DNA of 64,000 bases from Chromatiaceae bacterium (GTDB lineage Bacteria > Pseudomonadota > Gammaproteobacteria > Chromatiales > Chromatiaceae). Shown piece after piece: positions 2,884 through 15,265 of this stretch. The stretch spans positions 1 to 64,000 of the forward strand of contig JALWWO010000022.1 of the NCBI GenBank assembly GCA_027078745.1. Reading direction: 5' to 3'. Below the pieces are notes generated by a model that was given only the letters and a program-made list of their open reading frames with translations, made no database searches and was not told the DNA's origin. How positions within the stretch are numbered: position 1 is the stretch's first letter; the number at the start of each line of letters is the position of its first letter. The translations under genes were made by a program, and so were the position numbers.

Positions 2884-2910
2884 ATGCCGATTCGCAACCG
2901 GCGGGTTTGT

Positions 2911-3225
2911 ATGCTGCAACGTGCTCTTCTCTTCTGGCTGATCCTGTCCATGCTGGGCTACGGCCTGGCCCTGGCGATCGATGTGCACAGCGCCCAAATG
3001 CAGCCGGCTGCCTCCATCGTTGCCGCAGATGCAGGCGATCAAGACAAGCATGCGGGCCCCGCCTGTTGCGATCATTGCGTGCATGGTTCGGCCCATCTCC
3101 TGGGCTTGCACGCCGCCTTCGCGTTTCAGATCGCCCCCGCCGGCGCGCCGCTCCGCAGCGATGATCCGCCGGCGCTGCGGGCACCCCCGTTTCAAAAACC
3201 CCTGAAACCCCCCGCTCTGAGCTGA
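2911..3225 (+). CDS. Small His/Cys-rich exported protein of a heavy-metal efflux operon (CzcI/DUF2946-like)
   Basis: About 104 residues from the ATG at 2911; an ATG at 2884 would add nine residues. It begins with a hydrophobic segment (LQRALLFWLILSMLGYGLALA) typical of a signal peptide or anchor. A Cys/His patch, GPACCDHCVHGSAHLLGLH, follows around residues 50-68, and a proline-rich tail ends the protein. Short proteins with such a patch commonly precede czcBA-type genes and are thought to bind or sense metal in the periplasm. The adaptor gene follows 73 bp downstream on the same strand. Family assignment rests on size, export signal, metal-ligand patch and position, not on a firm sequence match. 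Confidence 0.6.
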   Translation: MLQRALLFWLILSMLGYGLALAIDVHSAQMQPAASIVAADAGDQDKHAGPACCDHCVHGSAHLLGLHAAFAFQIAPAGAPLRSDDPPALRAPPFQKPLKPPALS

Positions 3226-3298
3226 TTTTCCCTCGTTGTACGGGTCGCGGGCCCTTGCTCGCCGGCCGATCTCTCATTTTGCACTGGAAAATTCGCCC

Positions 3299-4435
3299 AT
3301 GAAAACGTTGATCTTACAACGGGCGGGCAGGGGGGTTTGCCTGCTCGTCCTAGCTCTCGCACCCTTTTGGAGCATCGCTGAAGAAGAGGGCCATGACCAC
3401 GGCGCACACGAGGAAGAAAACGTCGTTTCACTCGACCGCGCCCAGAGGGAGGCTGCCGGCATTCAAGTGATGCCCCTGGCGCCCAAGCCCCTGCCGGAAG
3501 AAATCGAAGCCCCGGGGGAAGTGCTATTGGATCTCTATGCCACCAGCCAGGTGACCCCCCGCATCGAAGCCCAGGTCGTGGCCCGGCTGGCCCGCTTGGG
3601 CGACCACGTGAAGAAGGGGCAACCCCTGGTCACGCTCTCCAGCGCGGAGATGGCCGATGCCCAGGGGGTGTTCATCATCGCCGCCCAGGACTGGCAGCGG
3701 GTGCGCCGGCTTACCCAGGAAATGATCTCAGAGCAGAAGCGGTTGGAAAGCCGAGTCGCCTTCCAACAGGCTTGGGCCAAGCTCTTGGCCTACGGCATGA
3801 CCACCGAGCAGATTCAGGCGTTGGCCCGCAACGAGGATGTCAGCCGCGCGGACGGCAGTTTCCAACTGCTCTCCCCCCAGGATGGCACCATCATTCAGGA
3901 TCGCTTCGTGGTGGGGCAGATGGTGGAACCCGGGGATCTGCTCTTCGAGATCACGGATGAATCTCGCATCTGGGTGGAAGCCCATGTAAATCCCTCCCAG
4001 ATGAAGCGGGTCAAGCCGGGGGCGCCAGCGCGCATCCTGGCGAACGGTGAGTGGTACGAAGGCCAGGTCATTCAAGCCCATCACCGCTTGGACGAAGCCA
4101 CCCGCACCATGCGGGTGCGCATCGAAGTGTCCAATCCCCAAGATCATCTGCATCCCGGTCTGTTCGTCACTGCCCACATCGCCGTGGGTGCTGCGGGTCA
4201 GCCGGTGTTGGTCCTGCCCCTGGAAGCGGTGCTGCGCAGCCCCGATGGGGATTGGCAAGTCTTTGTGGAGAAGGAGCCCGGCGAGTTCGCACCAGTGGAA
4301 GTGGAACTGGTGCGCCAGCTGCCCGGCCTCGCCGTGATCGAGGGGTTGGCCCCGGGCACCCGGGTGGTGACCCGCGGGGCGTTCTTCGTGCAGTCGGAGC
4401 TGGCCAAGTCCGGCTTCGCAATCCATAACCACTGA
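3299..4435 (+). CDS. Efflux RND periplasmic adaptor subunit, CzcB/CusB type
   Basis: A membrane fusion protein linking an inner-membrane RND pump to an outer-membrane channel. I place the start at the ATG at 3299, which gives MKTLILQRAGRGVC followed by a signal peptide. A TTG further upstream at 3236 would spoil the signal. After cleavage comes the His/acidic stretch EEEGHDHGAHEEEN, a probable metal-binding tail. The lipoyl/barrel-sandwich halves flank a short helical hairpin (residues about 60-190), followed by the beta-barrel region (FEITDESRIWVEAHVNP) and a membrane-proximal domain ending SELAKSGFAIHNH. The pump gene begins 10 nt after the stop, so the two are one transcript. No outer-membrane channel gene lies nearby. 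Confidence 0.92.
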   Translation: MKTLILQRAGRGVCLLVLALAPFWSIAEEEGHDHGAHEEENVVSLDRAQREAAGIQVMPLAPKPLPEEIEAPGEVLLDLYATSQVTPRIEAQVVARLARLGDHVKKGQPLVTLSSAEMADAQGVFIIAAQDWQRVRRLTQEMISEQKRLESRVAFQQAWAKLLAYGMTTEQIQALARNEDVSRADGSFQLLSPQDGTIIQDRFVVGQMVEPGDLLFEITDESRIWVEAHVNPSQMKRVKPGAPARILANGEWYEGQVIQAHHRLDEATRTMRVRIEVSNPQDHLHPGLFVTAHIAVGAAGQPVLVLPLEAVLRSPDGDWQVFVEKEPGEFAPVEVELVRQLPGLAVIEGLAPGTRVVTRGAFFVQSELAKSGFAIHNH

Positions 4436-4445
4436 GGGCAGCCCC

Positions 4446-7400
4446 ATGTTGAATCGACTCATCCGTTGGTCCGTTTCCAATCGGCTGCTGGTGGTCCTCG
4501 GCCTGCTGGGTGCCCTGGCGGGGGCTGCCCTGCTCATTCCGAAGCTTAATTTGGATGCCTTTCCCGATGTCACCAATGTGCAGGTGCAGATCAACACCGA
4601 GGCGGAAGGCCTGGCGGCGGAAGAGGTGGAACAGCTCATCACTTATCCCGTGGAGGCGGTGATGTATGCCCTGCCCGATGTGGAAGAGGTCCGTTCCATC
4701 TCCAAGACCGGACTTTCCGTGATTACCGTGGTGTTCAAAGAGGGCACCGACATCTATTTCGCCCGCCAACTGGTGTTCGAGCGCTTGCAGGCGGCGCGGG
4801 AGCGGATTCCCGAAGGGGTGGGCACACCGGAAATGGGGCCCAATACCTCGGGTTTGGGTCAGGTCTATCAATATCTTTTGCGGTCGGACGATCCGAAATA
4901 TGACGCCATCGCCCTGCGCAGCCTGAACGATTGGGTGGTGAAACTGCTGTTGCTGCCGGTGGACGGCATCACCGATGTGCTTTCCTTCGGGGGGGAGGTG
5001 CGCCAATACCAAGTTCAGGTCGATCCGCAAAAGCTGCTGGCCTATGGGCTGCGCATCGATCAGATCGCCCAGGCCATCGAGGATAACAACCGCAATGCCG
5101 GCGGCTGGTATCTCGACCGAGGGGCGGAACAGTTGGTGATTCGGGGCGTCGGCTGGGTGCGCTCGGGAGAAGCGGGCTTGCGGGACATCGCCAATGTGCC
5201 CCTCAAGGAAGAAGATGGGGTCGTGGTGCGGGTGCGCGATGTGGCCGAAGTGGCGTTCGGAGGGGAGATCCGGCAAGGGGCGGTGACCATGACCCGCCGG
5301 GGCCCGGACGGCGAGCCGGAGCCCCTGGGGGAGGTGGTGGCCGGCATCGTGCTCAAGCGCCTGGGTGCCAATACCAAGGCCACCATCGATGCCATCAAGG
5401 CCCGTCTGCCCGCCATCCAGCAGGCATTGCCGGCAGGGGTACAGCTGGAACCCTTCTATGATCAAGCGGATCTGGTGGAACAGGCGGTGAACACTGTGAG
5501 CCGGGCGCTGGTGGAAGCCTTCGTCCTCATTCTGGTGGTGCTGCTGCTCTTCTTGCTCAATATCCGCGCCACATTGCTGGTGCTGATCTCCGTGCCCCTG
5601 TCGGTGGGGCTGGCCCTGGCCGCCATGAGCTGGTGGGGCTTGTCGGCTAATCTCATGTCCCTGGGCGGGCTGGCTATCGCCATCGGCATGATGGTAGATG
5701 GCTCGGTGGTGATGATGGAAAACATCTTCAAGCATCTGTCCCGCCCGGATTCGGAACATGAAGAACGGGTTCAACAGGAGATCGCCCCGGGCGATCCGGA
5801 TCCCCATGACGCAGCCCGAGACCAGCACGGCATTCCCTTGCGCATCCAGGCGGCGGCTCAGGAAGTGGGCCGGCCGGTTTTCTACGCCGTGATCATCATC
5901 ATTTTGGTTTTCGCCCCCCTGTTCGCCCTGGAAGGGGTGGAAGGCAAGCTCTTCCAGCCCATGGCCATTTCCATCGTGCTGGCCATGGTGACTTCCCTTG
6001 TGGTGGCTTTGGTGGTGATGCCTGCCCTGGCTACCTACAGCTTCCGGCGGGCCATCCGGCACCGAGAAAGCCCCCTGTTCCGGCCCCTGGAATGGTTTTA
6101 CCGCCACAGCCTGGAACGGGCCCTGCGCATGCGCTGGCTGGTGGTGGGAGTCGCCCTAGTCCTGTTCGCAATGGCCCTCTGGCTGCTGCCGCGGCTGGGC
6201 ACTGAGTTTGTCCCCGAGCTGGAGGAAGGCACTATCAATATTCGGGTTACGCTGGCCCCTTCCGCCAACCTGAACACGGCGCTGCGGGTAGCTTCCGAAC
6301 TGGAACAGCGGCTCATGCAGTTTCCGGAAGTGACCTATGCGTCCAGCCGCATCGGCCGCGCCGAACTGGGGGGCGATCCCGAACCCGTCTCCAATATCGA
6401 AATCTATGTGGGACTCAAGCCAGTAGCCCAGTGGACCTCCGCCGAAAATCGGCTCGAACTGCAGAAGCAGTTTCAAGCGGCGCTCTCGATCCATCCGGGG
6501 CTGCTGTTCACCTTCTCCCAGCCCATCGCCACCCGGGTGGATGAACTGTTGTCTGGGGTCAAGGCCCAGCTCGCCATCAAACTGTTCGGCCCAGATCTGA
6601 AGGTGCTGGTGGAGAAGGGCAAGGCCATTGAGCAATTGGCCCGTCGGGTGCGGGGCACTCGCGATGTGGAGATGGAACAGATCGCCGGGGAAGCGCAACT
6701 GGTGGTGCGGCCCCAACGGGATCTGCTGGCCCGCTACGGCATCCCCGTGGCCCAAGTGATGGATCTGGTTTCCGACGGCATCGGCGGCACCACTGCCGGC
6801 CAAGTGATCCAGGGAAACGAACGCTACGATATCTATGTGCGCCTAGCCCCCCGTTTTCGGGAGGATGTGGAAACCCTGCGCAACCTGCTGCTGCAAGCCC
6901 CTGGCGGGGCCTGGGTGCGGCTGGGCGACGTGGCGGAAGTGGTCATCGAGTCCGGCCCCCCCCAGATCCGGCGCGACGATGTGCAACGCCGCGTGGTGAT
7001 TCAAGCCAATGTGGAAGGCCGCGATATGGGCGGCTTGGTGCAGGAGCTGCGGGCGCGCATCGATCGGGAAATCGATTTGCCCCCGGGCTACTCGGTGGTC
7101 TTCGGTGGCCAGTTCGAAAACCAGCAGCGGGCCCAACAGCGGCTGATGATCGTGGTGCCCCTCTCCCTGGGCTTGATCTTCCTGTTGCTCTACTTCGCCT
7201 TCCATTCCCTGGGCCAGGCCCTGTTGATCATGGTTAACGTGCCCTTGGCGCTCATCGGCGGCATCGTGTCCCTCTATCTCACGGGGCAATATCTCTCGGT
7301 GCCCGGCTCCATCGGTTTCATCGCCCTGTTCGGGGTGGCGGTGCTCAACGGGGTGGTGATGGTCAACGCCATCAATCAGAACCTGGCTGCCGGGGAATCC

Positions 7401-7751: not shown

Positions 7752-9203
7752 ATGAATCCCCGAACCGTTCAGAAAGTGTTGGGCGTGCTCCTCATGCTCT
7801 TCAGCCTCAGCATGCTGCCTCCCCTGTTCCTCGCTTTGTTCTTCCGCGATGGCACCGCCCTGCCCTTTCTCCTCACCCTGGGCTTGATCCTGGGGGCCGG
7901 TTTCCTCATCTGGCTGCCGGTGCGGGACCGGCGCCAGGAACTCCGGTTGCGGGATGGCTTTTTGGTGGTGGTACTGTTCTGGACGACCTTAGGGCTGTGC
8001 GGCGCCCTGCCCTTCCTCCTCGCCGAGCGTCCGGGCCTTTCGCTCACTGACGCAGTCTTTGAATCCCTGTCCGGCCTGACCACCACGGGGGCCACGGTCA
8101 TTCTCGGCATCGATGCGCTGCCTCCTGCCCTTCTCTTCTACCGGCAGCAGCTCCAATGGCTCGGGGGCATGGGCATCATCGTGCTAGCAGTGGCGGTCTT
8201 GCCCATGCTGGGCATCGGGGGAATGCAGCTCTATCGAGCAGAAACGCCCGGACCCATCAAAGATGCCAAGCTCACGCCCCGCATCACGGAAACGGCCAAG
8301 GCGCTCTGGTATCTCTATCTGATCCTGACGATCCTGTGCGCCTTCGCCTATTGGGTCGCAGGGATGACGCTTTTCGATGCCATCGGCCATGCCTTCTCCA
8401 CCGTGGCTATCGGAGGCTTCTCCACCCATGATGCCAGCATGGGCTATTTCGACAGCACGGCTTTGGAGATGGTCGCCGTGGTCTTCATGTTCTTGTCGGG
8501 AATCAACTTCGCCCTGCATTTCTTGGTCTGGCGGCGCAGGAATCCTTTGCTGTACTGGCGGGACAGTGAATTTCGGTTTTATGTACTGCTCTTGGTGTTG
8601 ATCACTGCTATCGTGGTCTTGAGCCTGTACTACACGGGCACCTATCCGGATTGGGCGGAGGCCTTCACCCAAGGCTTGTTTCAAACGGTTTCCATTGGCA
8701 CCACCACCGGCTTCACCACCGCCGCCTTTTACCATTGGCCCGGGTTCATCAGCATTTTGCTGCTCTTCAGCAGCTTTGTGGGGGGCTGTGCGGGAAGCAC
8801 CGGCGGGGGCATCAAGGTGATTCGCTTTCTCCTGCTCATCAAACAGGGCTTGCGAGAGATCAACCGCTTGATTCATCCCAACGCACAAATCCCCGTGCGC
8901 ATGGGGAGTCGCACGGTAGATCCGCAGGTGGTGGAAGCGGTCTGGGGGTTCTTCTCCCTCTATGTGGCTTCCTTCATCCTCATGTATCTGGTGCTGGCCG
9001 CCACCGGCTTGGATCTCATGACCGCCTTTTCTGCGGTGGCCGCCTGCATCAACAATTTGGGCCCCGGGTTGGCCTCCGTGGGCGCCCATTATGCGGATCT
9101 CAGCGACCCCGCTAAGTGGATCCTCTGCTTTGCCATGCTCCTGGGGCGATTGGAGATCTTCACCTTATTGGTGCTTCTCACCCCGGCCTTTTGGCGGCAC
9201 TGA
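7752..9203 (+). CDS. trkH: TrkH family potassium uptake protein
   Basis: A 483-residue membrane channel of the TrkH/KtrB family, which imports K+ together with a cytosolic TrkA-type regulator. The four pore-loop filters with their key glycines are visible in order: LTTTGATVI, STVAIGGFSTHD, IGTTTGFTTA and NNLGPGLASVG. About ten transmembrane segments surround them, and the length is normal. No trkA is next to it, so the regulatory subunit must be encoded elsewhere. The gene stands alone on the plus strand, about 125 bp after the metal operon. It ends 6 bp from the convergent end of the next gene. Potassium uptake is a first response to osmotic shock. Confidence 0.95.
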   Translation: MNPRTVQKVLGVLLMLFSLSMLPPLFLALFFRDGTALPFLLTLGLILGAGFLIWLPVRDRRQELRLRDGFLVVVLFWTTLGLCGALPFLLAERPGLSLTDAVFESLSGLTTTGATVILGIDALPPALLFYRQQLQWLGGMGIIVLAVAVLPMLGIGGMQLYRAETPGPIKDAKLTPRITETAKALWYLYLILTILCAFAYWVAGMTLFDAIGHAFSTVAIGGFSTHDASMGYFDSTALEMVAVVFMFLSGINFALHFLVWRRRNPLLYWRDSEFRFYVLLLVLITAIVVLSLYYTGTYPDWAEAFTQGLFQTVSIGTTTGFTTAAFYHWPGFISILLLFSSFVGGCAGSTGGGIKVIRFLLLIKQGLREINRLIHPNAQIPVRMGSRTVDPQVVEAVWGFFSLYVASFILMYLVLAATGLDLMTAFSAVAACINNLGPGLASVGAHYADLSDPAKWILCFAMLLGRLEIFTLLVLLTPAFWRH

Positions 9204-9209
9204 GCCGCA

Positions 9210-10070
9210 CTAGCGCCGATACCCGGGACCCGTGCCTCGGTCGAGGAGCATTACGATGCTGAAGAGCAGGAACAGACCGGTAGAGGCGATGGCGATCATC
9301 AGGATCTGTTGTTCCATGCTGATTTCCCCTTGTGTGCTGTTTTCATAAGCCTGATACAGGGAGAAGAGTTCTAGGCTCGCCTCATCGATCCGGCTGTCGG
9401 TGATCCTCGCGAGCAGTTTTTCCAAGGGGATCTTGTATTTCAACAGCACCTGAACATGGGCGGCATATTCTCGCAGTGTGGCGGCTACTGCTTCTGGGTA
9501 GGCAGACTCCTTCTCGAGCAAGCTATTGATGCGGGTCTCCAGGACCATGGCCAACCCACTGTTGGGTTGCTTCATGAAGTTGGTGATCTCCTGCTGAATC
9601 GTTTCCACCTCCTTCACCAGATCGGACAATCCCGCCTGGGTGGCTTCTCGAATCAGCTGGTGCTCTACCTGAGGCAGGTAGATCGCGGAGTTCCGCACGA
9701 TGGCATAATAGGATTTGAATCGCTCGATGTCCTTCTCCTTGCTGTCGAAGTAGCTCAGATAGGCCTGTAATACCCCACTGAGCGACCTAGGCATCTGATC
9801 AGAATTCAGTTCGCTATCTAGCAAAGCCTGCTTCGCCTCGCGAATCTTAGGCAAGAGCTCGGCCATCTGGTCGAAATTGGAAAGGGGCTCGCTGTAACTC
9901 TGCAGGGCGGCTAAGCTCCAGTGCGTGTTCAGCTTCTGCAAGGTTTTGATCCGATCCATGTTTTCGGTGAATTCTCGGTCTTCCCCGCTCTCCCAGGTCC
10001 AGAGCACATAGCCCAATGCCAGGCTGAGCAGCAATGCTAGGATCAGTCCAATCAATGGTATCGTTCTCAT
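9210..10070 (-). CDS. Membrane-anchored all-helical sensor-like protein (DAHL-domain type)
   Basis: 286 residues: an N-terminal membrane segment (IPLIGLILALLLSLALGYVLW), about 225 periplasmic residues predicted to be almost entirely helical, and a C-terminal membrane segment near residues 255-277. The tail after it is short and basic (DRGTGPGYRR). The layout matches the periplasmic part of sensor kinases with a double all-helical ligand-binding (DAHL) domain, but no kinase, cyclase or HAMP module follows. It may sense a ligand and signal through a partner, or scaffold the peroxidase. Its start overlaps the stop of the cytochrome peroxidase gene by 4 nt (ATGA). The family call is from memory of the fold pattern and is moderate; two-TM architecture and helicity are read from the sequence. 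Confidence 0.6.
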   Translation of the reverse strand: MRTIPLIGLILALLLSLALGYVLWTWESGEDREFTENMDRIKTLQKLNTHWSLAALQSYSEPLSNFDQMAELLPKIREAKQALLDSELNSDQMPRSLSGVLQAYLSYFDSKEKDIERFKSYYAIVRNSAIYLPQVEHQLIREATQAGLSDLVKEVETIQQEITNFMKQPNSGLAMVLETRINSLLEKESAYPEAVAATLREYAAHVQVLLKYKIPLEKLLARITDSRIDEASLELFSLYQAYENSTQGEISMEQQILMIAIASTGLFLLFSIVMLLDRGTGPGYRR

Positions 10071-11047
10071 AGCCCTTTCCCCTTATACTCACCGACCAAG
10101 GACTTGATGAAGGCCACGATCGCCTCCTTGTCCTCATCCGGTGCCGTTCGGCCTAACTGGAATTCAAACATAATGTCCACCGCCTCCCGCAAGGTCTTCG
10201 CGTTGCCATCGTGGAGATAGGGAGGCGTAACCGCAGCCATGCGCAAACTCGGCACTTTAAACATGTGCTTGTCTAGCTCATTGCCGGTTACATTGTAGCG
10301 GCCTAAATCCGCCTTGGTGAGATTTCCCCGCTTTCCGAAGTAGTCATTGACCACGCCGAAGATCTGAAAGAGATTGCCCCCCACGTTCACCCCCTGATGA
10401 CAGGAGACACAGCCATATTGCTTGAATAGCTCGTAGCCTCGTTTTTCCTGTTCGTTCAAGGCTTTTTCGTCTCCCTTCAGATAGCGATCAAAAGGGGAAT
10501 TGGGCGTGATGAGCGAACGTTCGAACTCCGCGATGGCATCTTTCACATTGTCCGGCGTGATTCCGTCAGGATAAATGGCATCGAACTGGGCTTTGTAGTC
10601 TGGATCCGATTGCAAGACTGCGATCACCTCGGGCCAGGTCATGCCCATCTCCTTGGGATTCTGGATGGGACCATCGATCTGCTCTTCCAGGGTTGCTGCC
10701 CGGCCATCCCAGAACAGCCGGAACAAAAAGATGGAATTGAACACGGTGGGAGAATTGATCGGGCCTTCCTGACCGAACACCCCGATAGAATGCTTTCTGC
10801 GATCCACGCCCCCCAGATCGAGAATATGACAGGAAGCGCAGGAAACCTTTTTGTCCTTGGACAAACGGGTTTCATGATAGAGCGCTCTGCCCAATGCGAC
10901 CTTTTTCGGATCCACCGCCACCGTTTCCGGAATAGGTTGGATGGGTTCGTTTCGCAAGCGGTCTTCCTCGGAAAAGCTCGGAAAGCTGGCCATTCCAAGG
11001 GACAGGAAGAGGGAAATGCCTAAGTAGGGAAGGGCGCTCGGCTTCAT
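10067..11047 (-). CDS. Di-heme cytochrome c peroxidase (CcpA/MauG family)
   Basis: 326 residues with an N-terminal signal peptide (LPYLGISLFLSLGMASFPSFS). Two c-type heme sites are present: VSCASCH near residue 75 and YGCVSCHQG near residue 220. Conserved peroxidase motifs such as NSPTVFNS and LFWDGRAATLEEQ follow the first heme, and FKVPSLRMAAVTPPYLHDG lies near residue 265. The enzyme reduces hydrogen peroxide in the periplasm with electrons from a small cytochrome or azurin. The first heme is the high-spin peroxidatic site in this family. The gene sits between a tandem-thioredoxin gene (50 nt upstream) and the helical sensor-like gene (4-nt overlap). Confidence 0.93.
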   Translation of the reverse strand: MKPSALPYLGISLFLSLGMASFPSFSEEDRLRNEPIQPIPETVAVDPKKVALGRALYHETRLSKDKKVSCASCHILDLGGVDRRKHSIGVFGQEGPINSPTVFNSIFLFRLFWDGRAATLEEQIDGPIQNPKEMGMTWPEVIAVLQSDPDYKAQFDAIYPDGITPDNVKDAIAEFERSLITPNSPFDRYLKGDEKALNEQEKRGYELFKQYGCVSCHQGVNVGGNLFQIFGVVNDYFGKRGNLTKADLGRYNVTGNELDKHMFKVPSLRMAAVTPPYLHDGNAKTLREAVDIMFEFQLGRTAPDEDKEAIVAFIKSLVGEYKGKGL

Positions 11048-11096
11048 CTTTCAGCTCCAGATTTACCCGGGTTATGCAACAGGCGGTCTCGCGGTT

Positions 11097-12107
11097 TCAA
11101 AGGGATCGATGGGCCCGCCATTGTCCATAGGTCTCCTTGCGGTATGCACCGCTGTTGATATAGTCCAGCACAGTGCGAAGGCGATAAAAGCGCACCACCG
11201 AATCCACCCGAAGGATCTCCTTTCCCTCGGGATCGAAAAAGAGCAAAGAGGGCGTGTAAAAAATACCCAGGTCTTCCGCCCATTTCCGAGCGGTCGTCCG
11301 TTCCCCCGCAGGCGTGACCACCGGCATATCGGATCGGAGATCGAGTTGCACACTGTCCAATGCGAAGAACTGCTGCCGGATCTCCGGTTCCCGCAAGACC
11401 TGGCCATGCAGCACATCGCAGGCATGGCAGTCCCCTCGCTCAAAGAAAACGACTAGCGGGCGATCGGAGGGATAGCGGCTTCGATCCAGGTTGAAGGGGG
11501 GAGGACTGAAGAAATCTTCGTCGTTGAGGTCCTGGGCATCGAACACCATGCGGTTCTCCCCGCGCGCGAGATAGTCCCGAAAGGATTCCCGCAGGTAATA
11601 GCCATTGACCACATATTCGAGGGCGGCTTGAAAGGGATAGGGCGGATAATAGCCCCGCAACCGCAGGGCCTCCCGTCCCTCTGCATCGTAGAAAAGCAAC
11701 GAGGGCGTAAAGTTCAAGCCCTTGGCGAGGGTGAATGCGCGTTCGGTTCGAACGGTGCCGTCCAGATCGATCACTTCCCGCACCCCCCAGATGTCGATGG
11801 GGATCACATCGAAGTGCCGCTTGGTATATTCCGCAATGTCCCGCCGCCCGAAATTCACCTGCATCAGCTTGTGGCAATAGGCGCAGCGCCGTTGGCCGAA
11901 GTAAACGATGATCCCCCGTTTACCCGCTGCGAGCGCTTCCTGCAAATCTTCCCCCAAATCCAGAAAGCTTTCCTTGAACCAATCCGGATGTTCCAAAAGC
12001 TGGGCCCGCGGGGAATCATCGAAGTTATAGATCGCCTCTGAATCTGCGCCGGCGAATCCCCAGGTATACCAGAAAGACAGCAGCAGAAGGAGGCTGCGGG
12101 GATTCAT
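11097..12107 (-). CDS. Exported protein with two thioredoxin-like domains (SoxW-like)
   Basis: 336 residues with a signal peptide (LLLLLSFWYTWGFAGA). Two thioredoxin folds lie in tandem. The first has the active site FGQRRCAYCHKL near residue 75 and the cis-proline stretch NFTPSLLFYDAEG. The second has FERGDCHACDVL near residue 226 and the matching stretch FYTPSLLFFDPEG. Both keep CxxC, so both may be redox active; CAYC and CHAC differ from the CGPC of reducing thioredoxins and resemble thioredoxins acting on hemes or sulfur carriers. The neighbours suggest it keeps heme-binding cysteines of the peroxidase reduced or handles peroxide damage. The gene follows the PII stop with no gap. Confidence 0.85.
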   Translation of the reverse strand: MNPRSLLLLLSFWYTWGFAGADSEAIYNFDDSPRAQLLEHPDWFKESFLDLGEDLQEALAAGKRGIIVYFGQRRCAYCHKLMQVNFGRRDIAEYTKRHFDVIPIDIWGVREVIDLDGTVRTERAFTLAKGLNFTPSLLFYDAEGREALRLRGYYPPYPFQAALEYVVNGYYLRESFRDYLARGENRMVFDAQDLNDEDFFSPPPFNLDRSRYPSDRPLVVFFERGDCHACDVLHGQVLREPEIRQQFFALDSVQLDLRSDMPVVTPAGERTTARKWAEDLGIFYTPSLLFFDPEGKEILRVDSVVRFYRLRTVLDYINSGAYRKETYGQWRAHRSL

Positions 12108-12458
12108 CTAAATCTCTTCCTCCACCAAGCCCACGAGCTTGCGGACCTGGTGATTCACCCCCACCGCATCTTCCACATCCAGTTGAAAGGCGATGCCCGA
12201 GTTGGGTTTTTCATCGAACTTCGCCACCTGCGCGATGGTTTCCAGGATGGTCCGGCTCAGATGCTCTTCCACCAAGAGCAAGATCACATCCCGCCGCATC
12301 TCCAGGGGCAGCCCAAAAAAGGTTTTCCGGTGCTCCACGCCCTCGCCTCGGGCATGGCTGATGACGGTGGAGCCGGTGGCGCCTGCCTTGCGGGCAGCTT
12401 CTAAAACCGATTTGGTGGTGCTGTCTTCTACAAAGGCCAGGATGAGTTTGAAATGCAT
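12108..12458 (-). CDS. Divergent PII-like (GlnB family) signalling protein
   Basis: 116 residues of the right size and pattern for the trimeric PII ferredoxin-like fold: MHFKLILAFVED at the start, then SVLEAARKAGATGSTVISHARGEG, and LLVEEHLSRTILETIAQVA. These correspond to the first beta strand, the first helix with the strand entering the T-loop, and the second helix. The region equal to the T-loop (GVEHRKTFFGLPLEM) lacks the uridylylated tyrosine motif of GlnB. This is an atypical PII rather than a nitrogen sensor of the Gln type. PII-like proteins next to transporters usually gate them by binding nucleotides. Here the transporter is the DUF1538 pair just upstream, 44 nt away. The downstream thioredoxin-like gene starts directly after this stop. 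Confidence 0.85.
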   Translation of the reverse strand: MHFKLILAFVEDSTTKSVLEAARKAGATGSTVISHARGEGVEHRKTFFGLPLEMRRDVILLLVEEHLSRTILETIAQVAKFDEKPNSGIAFQLDVEDAVGVNHQVRKLVGLVEEEI

Positions 12459-12502
12459 GGGTCTTTATCTCTCTCGCAAGGGTTCTGGCAGTGTCTGAAT
12501 GC

Positions 12503-13273
12503 TCATGATTGTCGTTTCGCCAGATATTCGCTGAGCTGCGCATAGCCCATGACCGTCATCATGGGAAACAGGCTGGCAAAGGCGATCAAGCCAAAGCCGT
12601 CCAGCAAGGGATTCCGGCCGGGAATATGGGTGGCCAATCCGAGACCCAAGGCAGTTACCAAAGGCACGGTTACGGTGGAAGTGGTCACCCCGCCGGAATC
12701 ATAGGCTAGGGCGATGATGGCTCGGGGTGCAAACCAGGTTTGGACCAAGACCAGCACATAGCCGACGATGATGTAGTGTGCCAGAGACGTGCCCGTGACA
12801 ATGCGGAAGGTGCCCAAACTGATGCCCAACGCGACGCCCAAGGCCACGGCGATGCGCAGCCCCCAGGGATGGATGACGCCGGCGGAAACCTGTTGGGCTT
12901 TGATGGCAACCGCGATGAGGGAGGGTTCCGCCACCGTGGTGGAAAAGCCGATGCAGAAGGCAAAGAGATAGACCCAGAAAAATGCATGCCAGTGATGAGT
13001 TTTAGTCTCCCCTTCAGCAAAGCCCAGGAACTCCGAAGCCGTGAGCTGTTGCGCCATGAGCTTCCCCAAGGGGAACAGGGCCCGTTCCAATCCCTCCAGA
13101 AAGAACGCCAAGCCCAGGAGCACGAACAGAAAGCCCAAGAGCACCTGCTTGAAATTGGGGATGGGGCGGCGCAGCACGACCACTTGAAAGCCCACCAGAA
13201 TGGCGAGGATGGGCAAGATGTCGTCGACGGTAGCCAACAAAGAGGACCACAGGGAGAGGAAAGGATCGTTCAT
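12503..13273 (-). CDS. DUF1538 membrane protein, second of a pair (UmpB type)
   Basis: 256 residues with about seven hydrophobic segments. It carries the family signature [20 protein letters not shown] near residues 187-206, followed by [19 protein letters not shown]. The upstream gene carries nearly the same signature, so the two are paralogous halves that probably assemble together. From memory, a DUF1538 pair called UmpAB in a Halomonas was reported as a Na+(Li+)/H+ antiporter; I cannot check this here. The gene overlaps umpA-like by 4 nt (ATGA) and is followed by the PII gene. That makes a regulated ion transporter in the inner membrane the best guess. Confidence 0.85.
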
Positions 13274-13995
13274 AAGAGGATGCCGTAGCCCATGACAAAG
13301 ATAATGGGCGTGAGGGAAGCGAAAGCGATGAGTCCGAAGCCATCGGTCATGGGGTTTCTGCCCTCGATGCTGGAAGCGAGCCCCACCCCCAGGGCGGTGA
13401 CCAAGGGCACTGTGATAGTGGAGGTGGTCACCCCGCCGGAGTCGTAGGCGATGCCGATGATCTCTTCCGGTGCGAAGGGGGTGAGCAGCACCACCCCCGC
13501 ATAGCCCAGGATGATCAGATATTGAATGGGCCAGCCCCGCAGGATGCGCAGCACACCGATGACGATGGCCAAGCCCACGGAGAGGGCCACCGTGTACCGG
13601 AGTCCCTCGGCATACTCTTCTCGGGCTTGGGCATGATCGGGGATCATGCCGCCGGTCGCAGCCACCTCCGCCGCCTCGTCAGCGATGGCGATGAGAGCGG
13701 GTTCCGCCACCGTGGTGCCGAAGCCCAGGGCAAAGGCAAACAGCAGCAACCAGAGGACGCTGCCCTTAGCGGCGAAATCCCAGGCCATGCCTTCCCCGAT
13801 GGGAAAGAGTCCCAGCTTCAGCCCCTGCACGAACAGCGTCAGACCGACGACCACCAGTACCACCCCCCAGAGCAGTTCCCCCAGATTGGGGATGGGCTGT
13901 CCGAGGACCACCAGTTGAAAGAAGGCGATCACCCCCAGGATGGGGAGTAGATCTCGGAGGCTGTCCAGCAGGGTGCGGAGAAACTGTAGCCACAT
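13270..13995 (-). CDS. DUF1538 membrane protein, first of a pair (UmpA type)
   Basis: 241 residues with about seven hydrophobic segments. The signature [20 protein letters not shown] near residues 181-200 and [19 protein letters not shown] match the second DUF1538 protein almost residue for residue. [21 protein letters not shown] is likely another conserved membrane hairpin; its partner has [20 protein letters not shown] at the same place. Two such inverted or parallel halves are expected to form one transport path. The start lies 5 nt after the stop of the deacetylase-like gene, without an obvious Shine-Dalgarno sequence, so it is probably translated by coupling. Substrate is inferred from memory of UmpAB only. 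Confidence 0.85.
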
Positions 13996-14000
13996 GGGAT

Positions 14001-14930
14001 TTAGGGTTGACCGATGAGGGCGTCCAGATGGGCGCTCACAGCACGCCCCAGGGCGTTCAGATGATAGCCCCCTTCCAGACAGGAGAGGATGCGCCCTTGG
14101 GCATGTTTCCCCGCCAGATACTGCAATTCCCGGGTGATCCAGGCGTAATCCGATTCCCGCAAGTTGAACTGGGCCATTTCATCCTCCGCATGGCCGTCAA
14201 AGCCGGCGGAGATCAAGATCATCTGGGGCGCGAACTCGTCCAGTAGCCCGAGCCAATGGGTTTCCACCGCCTTTCGGAACTGGGGGCCGTCCGTACCTCG
14301 GGGCAGGGGAATGTTGAGGATATTCGATGCGTTGTTGCCGGCACCGCTGCCCGGGTAAAAGGGATGTTGGAAGCTGGAGCAGAAGCGCACTCGTTCATCT
14401 CCCGCGAAGATGTCCTGGGTGCCGTTGCCGTGATGCACATCGAAATCTATGATGGCGATTCGTTCCAGCCCATAGACCGCCAGAGCATGGGCGGCACCCA
14501 CCGCCACATTGTTGAAGATACAAAAGCCCATGGCGCGGCGCCGCTCTGCATGATGGCCCGGGGGTCGCACGCAGGCGAAAGCGACTTGATGGCGGTTGCT
14601 CATGACCAGATCCACCCCCAACACCGCCGCCCCCGCCGCCCGCAGGGCAGCGGGCAGGCTGTGAGCATTCATGGCGGTGTCCCCGTCGAGCCATCGGAGT
14701 TCGTCCCCTTCGGGCGCCGCATCGAAGATTTCCCGAATATAATCCGGATCATGGACCCGCGCGAGCTGGGCTTCCGTGGCCGCCGGTGCCTCATAATGGG
14801 TGAGCAGGCTATCCAGCCCGGCGGCGATCAGCCGATCTGCGATGGCATCCAATCGTTCGGGGCATTCGGGATGATGCGGCCCCATCCTGTGTGCTCGGCA
14901 CAGGGGATGGCCGATGAAGGCCAGGCTCAT
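14001..14930 (-). CDS. Histone deacetylase superfamily enzyme (AcuC/AphA-like)
   Basis: 309 residues, the usual length of bacterial zinc-dependent deacetylases. The catalytic elements are all visible: [16 protein letters not shown] with the His-His dyad near residue 142, the zinc site [14 protein letters not shown] near residue 180, and [13 protein letters not shown] near residue 260. [13 protein letters not shown], with the transition-state region, closes the domain. The enzyme removes acyl groups from lysine or from polyamine-like substrates in the cytosol; the substrate cannot be read from sequence. It is the first gene of a seven-gene minus-strand run with the DUF1538 pair, PII, thioredoxin-like protein and peroxidase. 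It is divergent from the GDT1 gene. Confidence 0.92.
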
Positions 14931-14995: not shown

Positions 14996-15265
14996 ATGGA
15001 CTGGAAAATGCTGACCACAGTTTTCATCACCGTCTTCATCGCGGAGCTGGGGGACAAGACCCAGCTCGCCACCCTGTTGTTCGCCGCCGATCAGTCGGTG
15101 AACAAGTGGCTGGTCTTTCTGGGGGCTTCCCTCGCCCTGATCCTCACCTCTGCGTTGGGGGTGCTGGGGGGGGCCTTCATCGCCCAGCACCTGAACGAGC
15201 GCACCCTTCATCTCGTGGCGGGCATCGGTTTCATCCTCATCGGTGCCTGGACTCTCTGGAAATGA
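14996..15265 (+). CDS. TMEM165/GDT1 family membrane protein (single-repeat form)
   Basis: 89 residues with three hydrophobic segments and the family motif AELGDKTQLATLL near residues 15-27 in the first one. Eukaryotic GDT1 proteins contain this unit twice. Bacterial forms like this one have one copy and work as dimers. Relatives move Ca2+ or Mn2+ out of the cytosol in exchange for protons, so manganese export is a likely role. The ATG at 14996 is chosen because AGAGGAAAGG precedes it by about 8 nt. The radA start lies 11 nt after the stop, so the two are probably co-transcribed. Confidence 0.88.
   Translation: MDWKMLTTVFITVFIAELGDKTQLATLLFAADQSVNKWLVFLGASLALILTSALGVLGGAFIAQHLNERTLHLVAGIGFILIGAWTLWK

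Follow-up and report, generated by a model that had tools for sequence, protein, structure and literature searches.

We analysed a 64,000-nucleotide stretch of DNA from a Chromatiaceae bacterium (positions 1 to 64,000 of contig JALWWO010000022.1, GenBank assembly GCA_027078745.1), here called the window, from a source genome of 2,183,729 bases (2.18 Mb) in 24 contigs. Between positions 14930 and 9210 the window carries seven minus-strand open reading frames (ORFs) in series, with gaps of 5, -4, 44, 0, 49 and -4 nt. They encode, in order, a histone-deacetylase-like enzyme, two DUF1538 membrane proteins resembling UmpA and UmpB, a PII-like protein, a double thioredoxin-fold protein, a di-heme cytochrome c peroxidase and a receptor with a DAHL domain and no output domain. 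An original prediction, made from the letters of the window alone, had described this run; all of its ORFs and spacings were confirmed, and Pfam domains agree with its label for each of the seven genes. It treated the helical DAHL protein as simply a seventh part. The protein does lie in the run, but the evidence makes it one half of the peroxidase-DAHL pair, the portion of the run that is best conserved and has been described the least. This two-gene module, with its linkage and the sequence mark of its peroxidase, is the new content of our analysis.

Linkage of the peroxidase and DAHL genes

The peroxidase gene (11047-10067, minus strand; Pfam CCP_MauG, 202 bits) and the DAHL gene that follows it (10070-9210, minus strand) make up what we call module 2 of the run. 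The DAHL gene encodes 286 amino acids that score 102.7 bits (E 3.1e-29) against a cut-off of 38 for Pfam model PF19443. Most matches of the window DAHL protein elsewhere adjoin matches of the peroxidase.

Searches with the Pfam DAHL model gave matches in 64 of 194 genomes of the window's family (60 above cut-off) and in 57 of 299 genomes of its phylum (48 above cut-off). Of the 59 best-scoring loci, 57 have a di-heme peroxidase gene upstream of the DAHL gene and in the same orientation; the remaining two (L269 and L291) run off their contigs. To guard against a bias towards the best scores, we assembled a second set from all remaining above-cut-off phylum matches and a few family ones; among its 39 testable loci a peroxidase is present in 29, a remnant in one (L239) and none in nine. 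Across both sets the upstream gene is found in 86 of 96 testable loci, plus the one remnant, with four untestable loci standing outside the 96. The phylum sample alone, above the Pfam cut-off and outside the window genome, has the peroxidase in 57 of 66 loci, none in seven and a contig edge in two. Ten phylum matches under the cut-off and part of the family matches were left out of these counts. At L239 the peroxidase-gene remnant (about 9875-10042) stands beside an intact DAHL kinase, which suggests that the partner was lost there.

The arrangement of the two genes was examined in long loci that include the window and partly overlap the earlier set. Our own profiles recovered 112 DAHL reading frames there, 105 of them with a peroxidase (two of the 105 are pieces of one gene at L407; L233 and L269, being the same place, enter a single time). 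Nine loci missed by our DAHL profile (L352, L354, L355, L357, L359, L360, L361, L364 and L367) do not enter the overlap, output and histidine counts; at three of them (L357, L359 and L361) a peroxidase is present, with no histidine at the distal position discussed below. The DAHL start codon begins 4 nt before the end of the peroxidase stop codon, an exact 4-nt overlap, in 84 of the 105 pairs, including that of the window. Because the identical overlap recurs so often, the ATGA shared by the two window genes is beyond chance. As a two-gene module, peroxidase and DAHL are conserved widely, and in most cases the stop codon of the first gene overlaps the start codon of the second; the tie between peroxidase and kinase-less sensor that the original prediction had drawn in one genome holds well beyond it.

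Public records of named organisms show the module too; those examined include a minority of the 305 plasmid records that match the peroxidase (two further Agrobacterium vitis records were left out). The pair has a 4-nt overlap in the cyanobacterium Gloeocapsa sp. PCC 7428 (peroxidase WP_015191243.1, DAHL protein WP_015191242.1); in Vitreoscilla filiformis (strain ATCC 15551, WP_089418282.1 and WP_089418281.1) it shows 4-nt overlaps and is followed by a response regulator; in A. vitis F2/5 the two genes are separated by a 56-nt gap, and a response regulator comes next; and in Rhizobium sullae the pair is unannotated (ORFs 2898-3917 and 3914-6418 of L446). In Gloeocapsa a gene for a sugar ABC substrate-binding protein (L444, 8722-9909) comes after the pair, reminiscent of VirA and ChvE. 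We found no description of the pairing in the open-access literature searched, and the portions available to us of PMC9796306, PMC6405878, PMC2909971, PMC3770913, PMC7726332 and PMC10094543 do not describe it.

Sequence features of the paired proteins

The window peroxidase has two CXXCH heme motifs (C70-C73-H74 and C213-C216-H217), together with W113, Q123, E133, H279 and M293, and has V90 at the position of the distal histidine. M293, W113, Q123 and E133 align with residues of 1iqc, the roles of the classical residues coming partly from PMC10094543 and partly from general knowledge. The best match in the Protein Data Bank (PDB) is the chain 9qdt (342 bits); 3o5c scores 279 bits and 1iqc 264.

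In classical di-heme cytochrome c peroxidases, a distal histidine on the peroxidatic heme leaves upon reductive activation, and a tryptophan nearby stabilises the loop that carries it (PMC10094543, in part). The paired enzymes share with this class the two CXXCH hemes and the methionine ligand, tryptophan, glutamine and glutamate positions, but differ from it in that the gene is paired with a receptor and in that both distal histidine and loop tryptophan are absent. The histidine is present in none of 102 paired peroxidases (103 aligned, one with a gap there) and the loop tryptophan in none of 103; a histidine occurs one residue later in three of the 103. By contrast, among 21 unpaired control peroxidases from 20 hand-picked loci, in which our profile found no DAHL gene, the histidine is seen in 16 and the tryptophan in 19, and the window genome's own unpaired enzyme (L266) has both. 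The three named cases that are in the alignment, which does not include R. sullae, also lack the two residues. Elsewhere the paired enzymes largely retain the heme sites and other key positions, with W113 in 103 of 103, Q123 in 90, E133 in 86 and M293 in all 101 that have a residue there. Their peroxidase activity is putative, and an enzyme without a distal histidine may not require activation.

The most conserved positions of the DAHL domain are D67 (103 of 105), N127 (101), H205 (94) and P133 (93), and the window protein has all four. DAHL proteins that stand apart from peroxidases are mixed in this respect: L337 lacks D67, N127 and H205, and others retain most of the conserved positions. 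Putative membrane helices span residues 4-27 and 252-280 of the window protein, where its structural model is of low confidence. The model as a whole is nearest to the sensor domains of McpS (Z 15.8) and TorS (14.6; 13.0 for TorS in complex with TorT), at a mean predicted local distance difference test (pLDDT) score of 69.8. A PDB sequence search with the protein gave nothing convincing (E 0.61 and up).

The outputs of the 105 paired receptors, assigned from their resemblance to a small number of Pfam-checked examples, are a histidine kinase in 54, GGDEF-EAL in 38, GGDEF in three and none recognised in ten. GGDEF-EAL prevails in the window's family (37 of 52 paired receptors) and kinases in other families (48 of 53), and parsimony on a tree of the paired peroxidases (n = 100) requires at least eight changes of output type. 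The same 100 of the 105 pairs served for a test of co-variation, with L238, L398, L405 and L407 left out as short or split. Distances between peroxidases and between their DAHL domains correlate with r = 0.666, above all 500 shuffles of DAHL domains among the modules of the same genome (mean 0.608, maximum 0.661), a control for species relatedness; the effect is small.

Pfam recognises no kinase or other output domain in the window DAHL protein, which ends about 10 residues past its second putative helix. Downstream there is no further piece of receptor, and the place taken by the kinase part in relatives is occupied by a convergent gene for a TrkH potassium transporter (7752-9203, plus strand; Pfam TrkH, 2.2e-99), 6 nt from the DAHL stop codon. 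The window peroxidase groups with those of L229 and L230, both of the kinase type (SH-aLRT 99). On our reading the window receptor has lost its kinase half, with TrkH now in its place. A move of the kinase and regulator to another part of the genome was considered and rejected: no close copy turned up there, the kinase part of L229 and the regulator beside it showing only ordinary similarity (28-41% and 25-39% identity). A complete module is present on contig C8 of this genome (L247), and its DAHL receptor carries PAS, GGDEF and EAL domains. Because its conserved residues are kept, the window receptor appears either to be functional or to have been truncated recently: it may be a recent remnant, or it may act through another protein, for example the second DAHL receptor of its genome.

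Output-less DAHL proteins do not make up a class of their own, since the other nine paired frames are mostly broken, cut off or PAS-only. In six (L238, L254, L265, L350, L365 and L407) the rest of the receptor lies in another frame or past an insertion, L259 runs off its contig, and L333 and L398 have PAS domains only. At L365 a gene that looks like a transposase (4237-5520) splits the receptor between the second helix and the PAS-kinase part.

A candidate periplasmic co-sensor

The peroxidase is probably the dedicated periplasmic co-sensor of the DAHL receptor, as TorT is for TorS, through a mechanism that we infer as follows. Since the distal histidine is missing and need not be displaced, the peroxide-binding heme would be open at all times. 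The state of the peroxidase would change when it reacts with hydrogen peroxide or when some other ligand binds the heme. By touching the helical DAHL domain, much as TorT touches TorS, it would hand this state on to the receptor, which would relay the signal to its kinase or cyclic di-GMP (c-di-GMP) enzyme. Overlap of the genes would keep the two proteins at a fixed ratio, which would suit a system like TorS-TorT. The pointers to such a contact are indirect: gene linkage, overlap and co-variation. That peroxide is the signal, and that the truncated copy has a part in sensing, are likewise presumptive.

A more far-reaching reading, which we offer as a tentative possibility, is that DAHL-paired peroxidases in many Pseudomonadota and at least one cyanobacterium are the oxidant-sensing subunits of a receptor family and do not detoxify. 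A constantly open di-heme peroxidase would then read periplasmic hydrogen peroxide and signal, through contact, to DAHL receptors with kinase or c-di-GMP outputs, and the window's output-less copy might pair with the full receptor of its genome.

Several known systems resemble the pair in part. ChvE is the sugar-binding protein partner of the sensor kinase VirA, and residues 10-278 of the window DAHL protein align with PRK13837, a VirA-like kinase model (35 of 647 bits); unlike VirA-ChvE, however, the window protein has no kinase domain and its partner is a heme peroxidase. Like TorS-TorT the pair has a gene for a dedicated periplasmic partner beside that of the receptor, and it may share a helical periplasmic sensor domain, to judge by a medium-confidence single-sequence model (Z 12.8-14.6 to TorS entries). 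It differs in that the partner is a di-heme peroxidase rather than a binding protein, in that outputs include c-di-GMP enzymes, and in that the genes overlap on one strand whereas those of TorS and TorT are divergent. Phosphorylation of the TorS regulator requires that TorS be bound to TorT loaded with trimethylamine N-oxide (TMAO) (PMC6814406). Tlp10 of Campylobacter also has a DAHL sensor domain but, unlike the receptors here, is a chemotaxis receptor for several classes of ligand, including malate (PMC9796306, an excerpt citing others). If the pairing is physical, it would give a defined role to peroxidases annotated merely as 'cytochrome c peroxidase', a candidate signal to DAHL receptors, and a periplasmic oxidant sensor to phosphorelays and c-di-GMP signalling.

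A number of observations weigh against the co-sensor reading. Nine testable DAHL loci, mostly with weaker DAHL matches, have no peroxidase match (L337, L352, L353, L354, L355, L360, L362, L366 and L367), so the DAHL domain does not always need a peroxidase, and some of the pairs counted have a damaged or incomplete peroxidase gene (L238/L290 and L283/L398). The catalytic glutamate is not universal, being found in 86 of 103 paired enzymes and absent from two of the three aligned named cases. Because 9qdt, the closest PDB chain, also has a valine at the distal position, enzymes outside the pairs may share the histidine-less mark. The DAHL model was built from a single sequence with the mean pLDDT given above; its Foldseek E-values are 0.0086 or worse, and by the search tool's own check a best Z of 14 is typical of largely helical models that match nothing clearly. 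Strongly supported branches of the peroxidase tree force only one output change, and of the 28 modules from the 12 genomes with several, just 12 have the same nearest neighbour for the peroxidase as for the DAHL domain.

An alternative would keep the peroxidase as a plain enzyme, with the DAHL receptor as regulator of that enzyme or of the same stress response, the genes being members of one regulon and the proteins making no contact. Genes for enzymes commonly sit beside those of their regulators. A response-regulator-like gene stands next to at least five modules of the histidine kinase type (L229, L230, L335, A. vitis and V. filiformis; two were checked with Pfam), and sensor kinases occur in operons of another heme protein, SHP (PMC2909971). 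Set against this, 41 of the 105 receptors have GGDEF or GGDEF-EAL, which do not directly regulate a neighbouring gene, the outputs change while the partner stays constant, and the paired peroxidases are distinct in sequence from unpaired controls; a simple regulon is on balance unlikely. It is harder still to credit that the peroxidase works in the manner of MauG, chemically modifying the DAHL domain or making its ligand, with no docking signal. MauG does oxidise tryptophans of a partner protein (PMC6405878, in part), and the best NCBIfam models for the window peroxidase are MbnH (187 of 363 bits) and MauG (155 of 444), both below cut-off. However, a methionine stands at position 293 in all 101 paired enzymes with a residue there, the window's included, as in the aligned classical peroxidases, where MauG has a tyrosine heme ligand (same excerpt). 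The listed conserved DAHL positions include no invariant tryptophan, tyrosine or cysteine, the most conserved such position being residue 66 (tyrosine in 85 and phenylalanine in 15 of 105). On these two grounds we rejected MauG-type chemistry. Two response regulators encoded beside kinase-type modules (L229, 1263-2225, and L447, 6699-7772) have a receiver domain and, towards the C terminus, a long stretch that Pfam does not recognise.

The other genes of the run

The whole run might alternatively be one functional unit in this organism, although relatives split its parts. The gaps between its genes are short, and a scan found terminator-like sites in no excess (4 against 5.5 expected); against this, the parts stand apart in other genomes, and we regard a unit peculiar to this organism as very improbable. 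In a gene-by-gene survey of the 194 family genomes, the seven-gene order was absent from all other loci examined and seen in the window genome alone. We examined 40 UmpB loci, one per genome and from the upper part of the match list, 23 of them at the full 19.5 kb and the rest cut by contig ends; none contains a match (E 1e-4) to the deacetylase, double thioredoxin, peroxidase, DAHL, TrkH, GDT1 or RadA proteins of the window. Matches to the double thioredoxin occur in 165 of the 194 genomes, and at 67 named thioredoxin loci (another collection, several of them short) there is no match to the nine other query proteins at E 1e-5; at one of the 67, L098, the thioredoxin itself is also without a match at this threshold. 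The deacetylase has matches in 167 of the 194 genomes, and in at least ten a distance of 12.6-15.6 kb separates it from UmpB, which is encoded on the other strand of the same contig.

The run consists of separate older units set end to end in one genome: the deacetylase, the UmpA-UmpB-PII trio, the separate double thioredoxin and the peroxidase-DAHL pair. The gene order in other genomes does not support the single system of coupled ion homeostasis and peroxide defence put forward in the original prediction, and on that ground we rejected it. The prediction had itself named an order unique to this genome, with the two halves apart and under their own promoters in neighbouring species, as the finding that would speak against it, and as far as gene order goes this is what the examined loci show. 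Its proposal that the tandem thioredoxin maintains the peroxidase has no support either, the 67 thioredoxin loci, several of them short, showing no linkage to a peroxidase. The case cautions against taking close gene spacing in a single small genome as the sign of one system.

The deacetylase-like enzyme (14930-14001, minus strand; 309 amino acids; Pfam Hist_deacetyl, 299 bits, 6e-89) stands outside the conserved modules. The double thioredoxin-fold protein (12107-11097, minus strand; 336 amino acids) matches Pfam Thioredoxin_2 in two stretches as well as Thioredoxin_7, and is probably secreted, judging from its N-terminal hydrophobic stretch. Divergent from the deacetylase gene is one for a single-domain GDT1-like cation antiporter of 89 amino acids (14996-15265), and next after it comes an ORF that looks RadA-like.

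Module 1 of the run, the trio, consists of the UmpA-like gene (13995-13270; Pfam DUF1538, 3.7e-70), the UmpB-like gene (13273-12503; DUF1538, 4.3e-68) and the PII-like gene (12458-12108; 116 amino acids), all on the minus strand. The two membrane proteins score 236 and 229 bits with DUF1538, and the PII-like protein exceeds the Pfam P-II gathering score (43 bits against 25; 6.1e-11). Because the UmpA-like protein (381 bits against 490) and the UmpB-like protein (341 against 500) both fall under the NCBIfam equivalog cut-offs, the label 'UmpAB-type' of the original prediction is good for the DUF1538 family and should be read at that level only. UmpB matches occur in 133 of the 194 family genomes. 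The link drawn earlier between PII and the DUF1538 pair is borne out, with UmpA, UmpB and PII adjoining in 39 of the 40 UmpB loci and the fortieth (L123) stopping at a contig edge. UmpAB of Halomonas zhaodongensis, a Na(Li,K)/H antiporter, has a DUF1538 pair in common with the window (PMC5484666, in part); the window pair differs from it in scoring below the NCBIfam cut-offs and in having a PII-like gene behind it. The main text of that paper nowhere uses the terms P-II, PII or nitrogen regulatory. The PII-like gene behind the DUF1538 pair is likely to encode a regulator of this type of antiporter. At one further locus, L104 (G099:C274), a second UmpB-like copy adjoins the trio.

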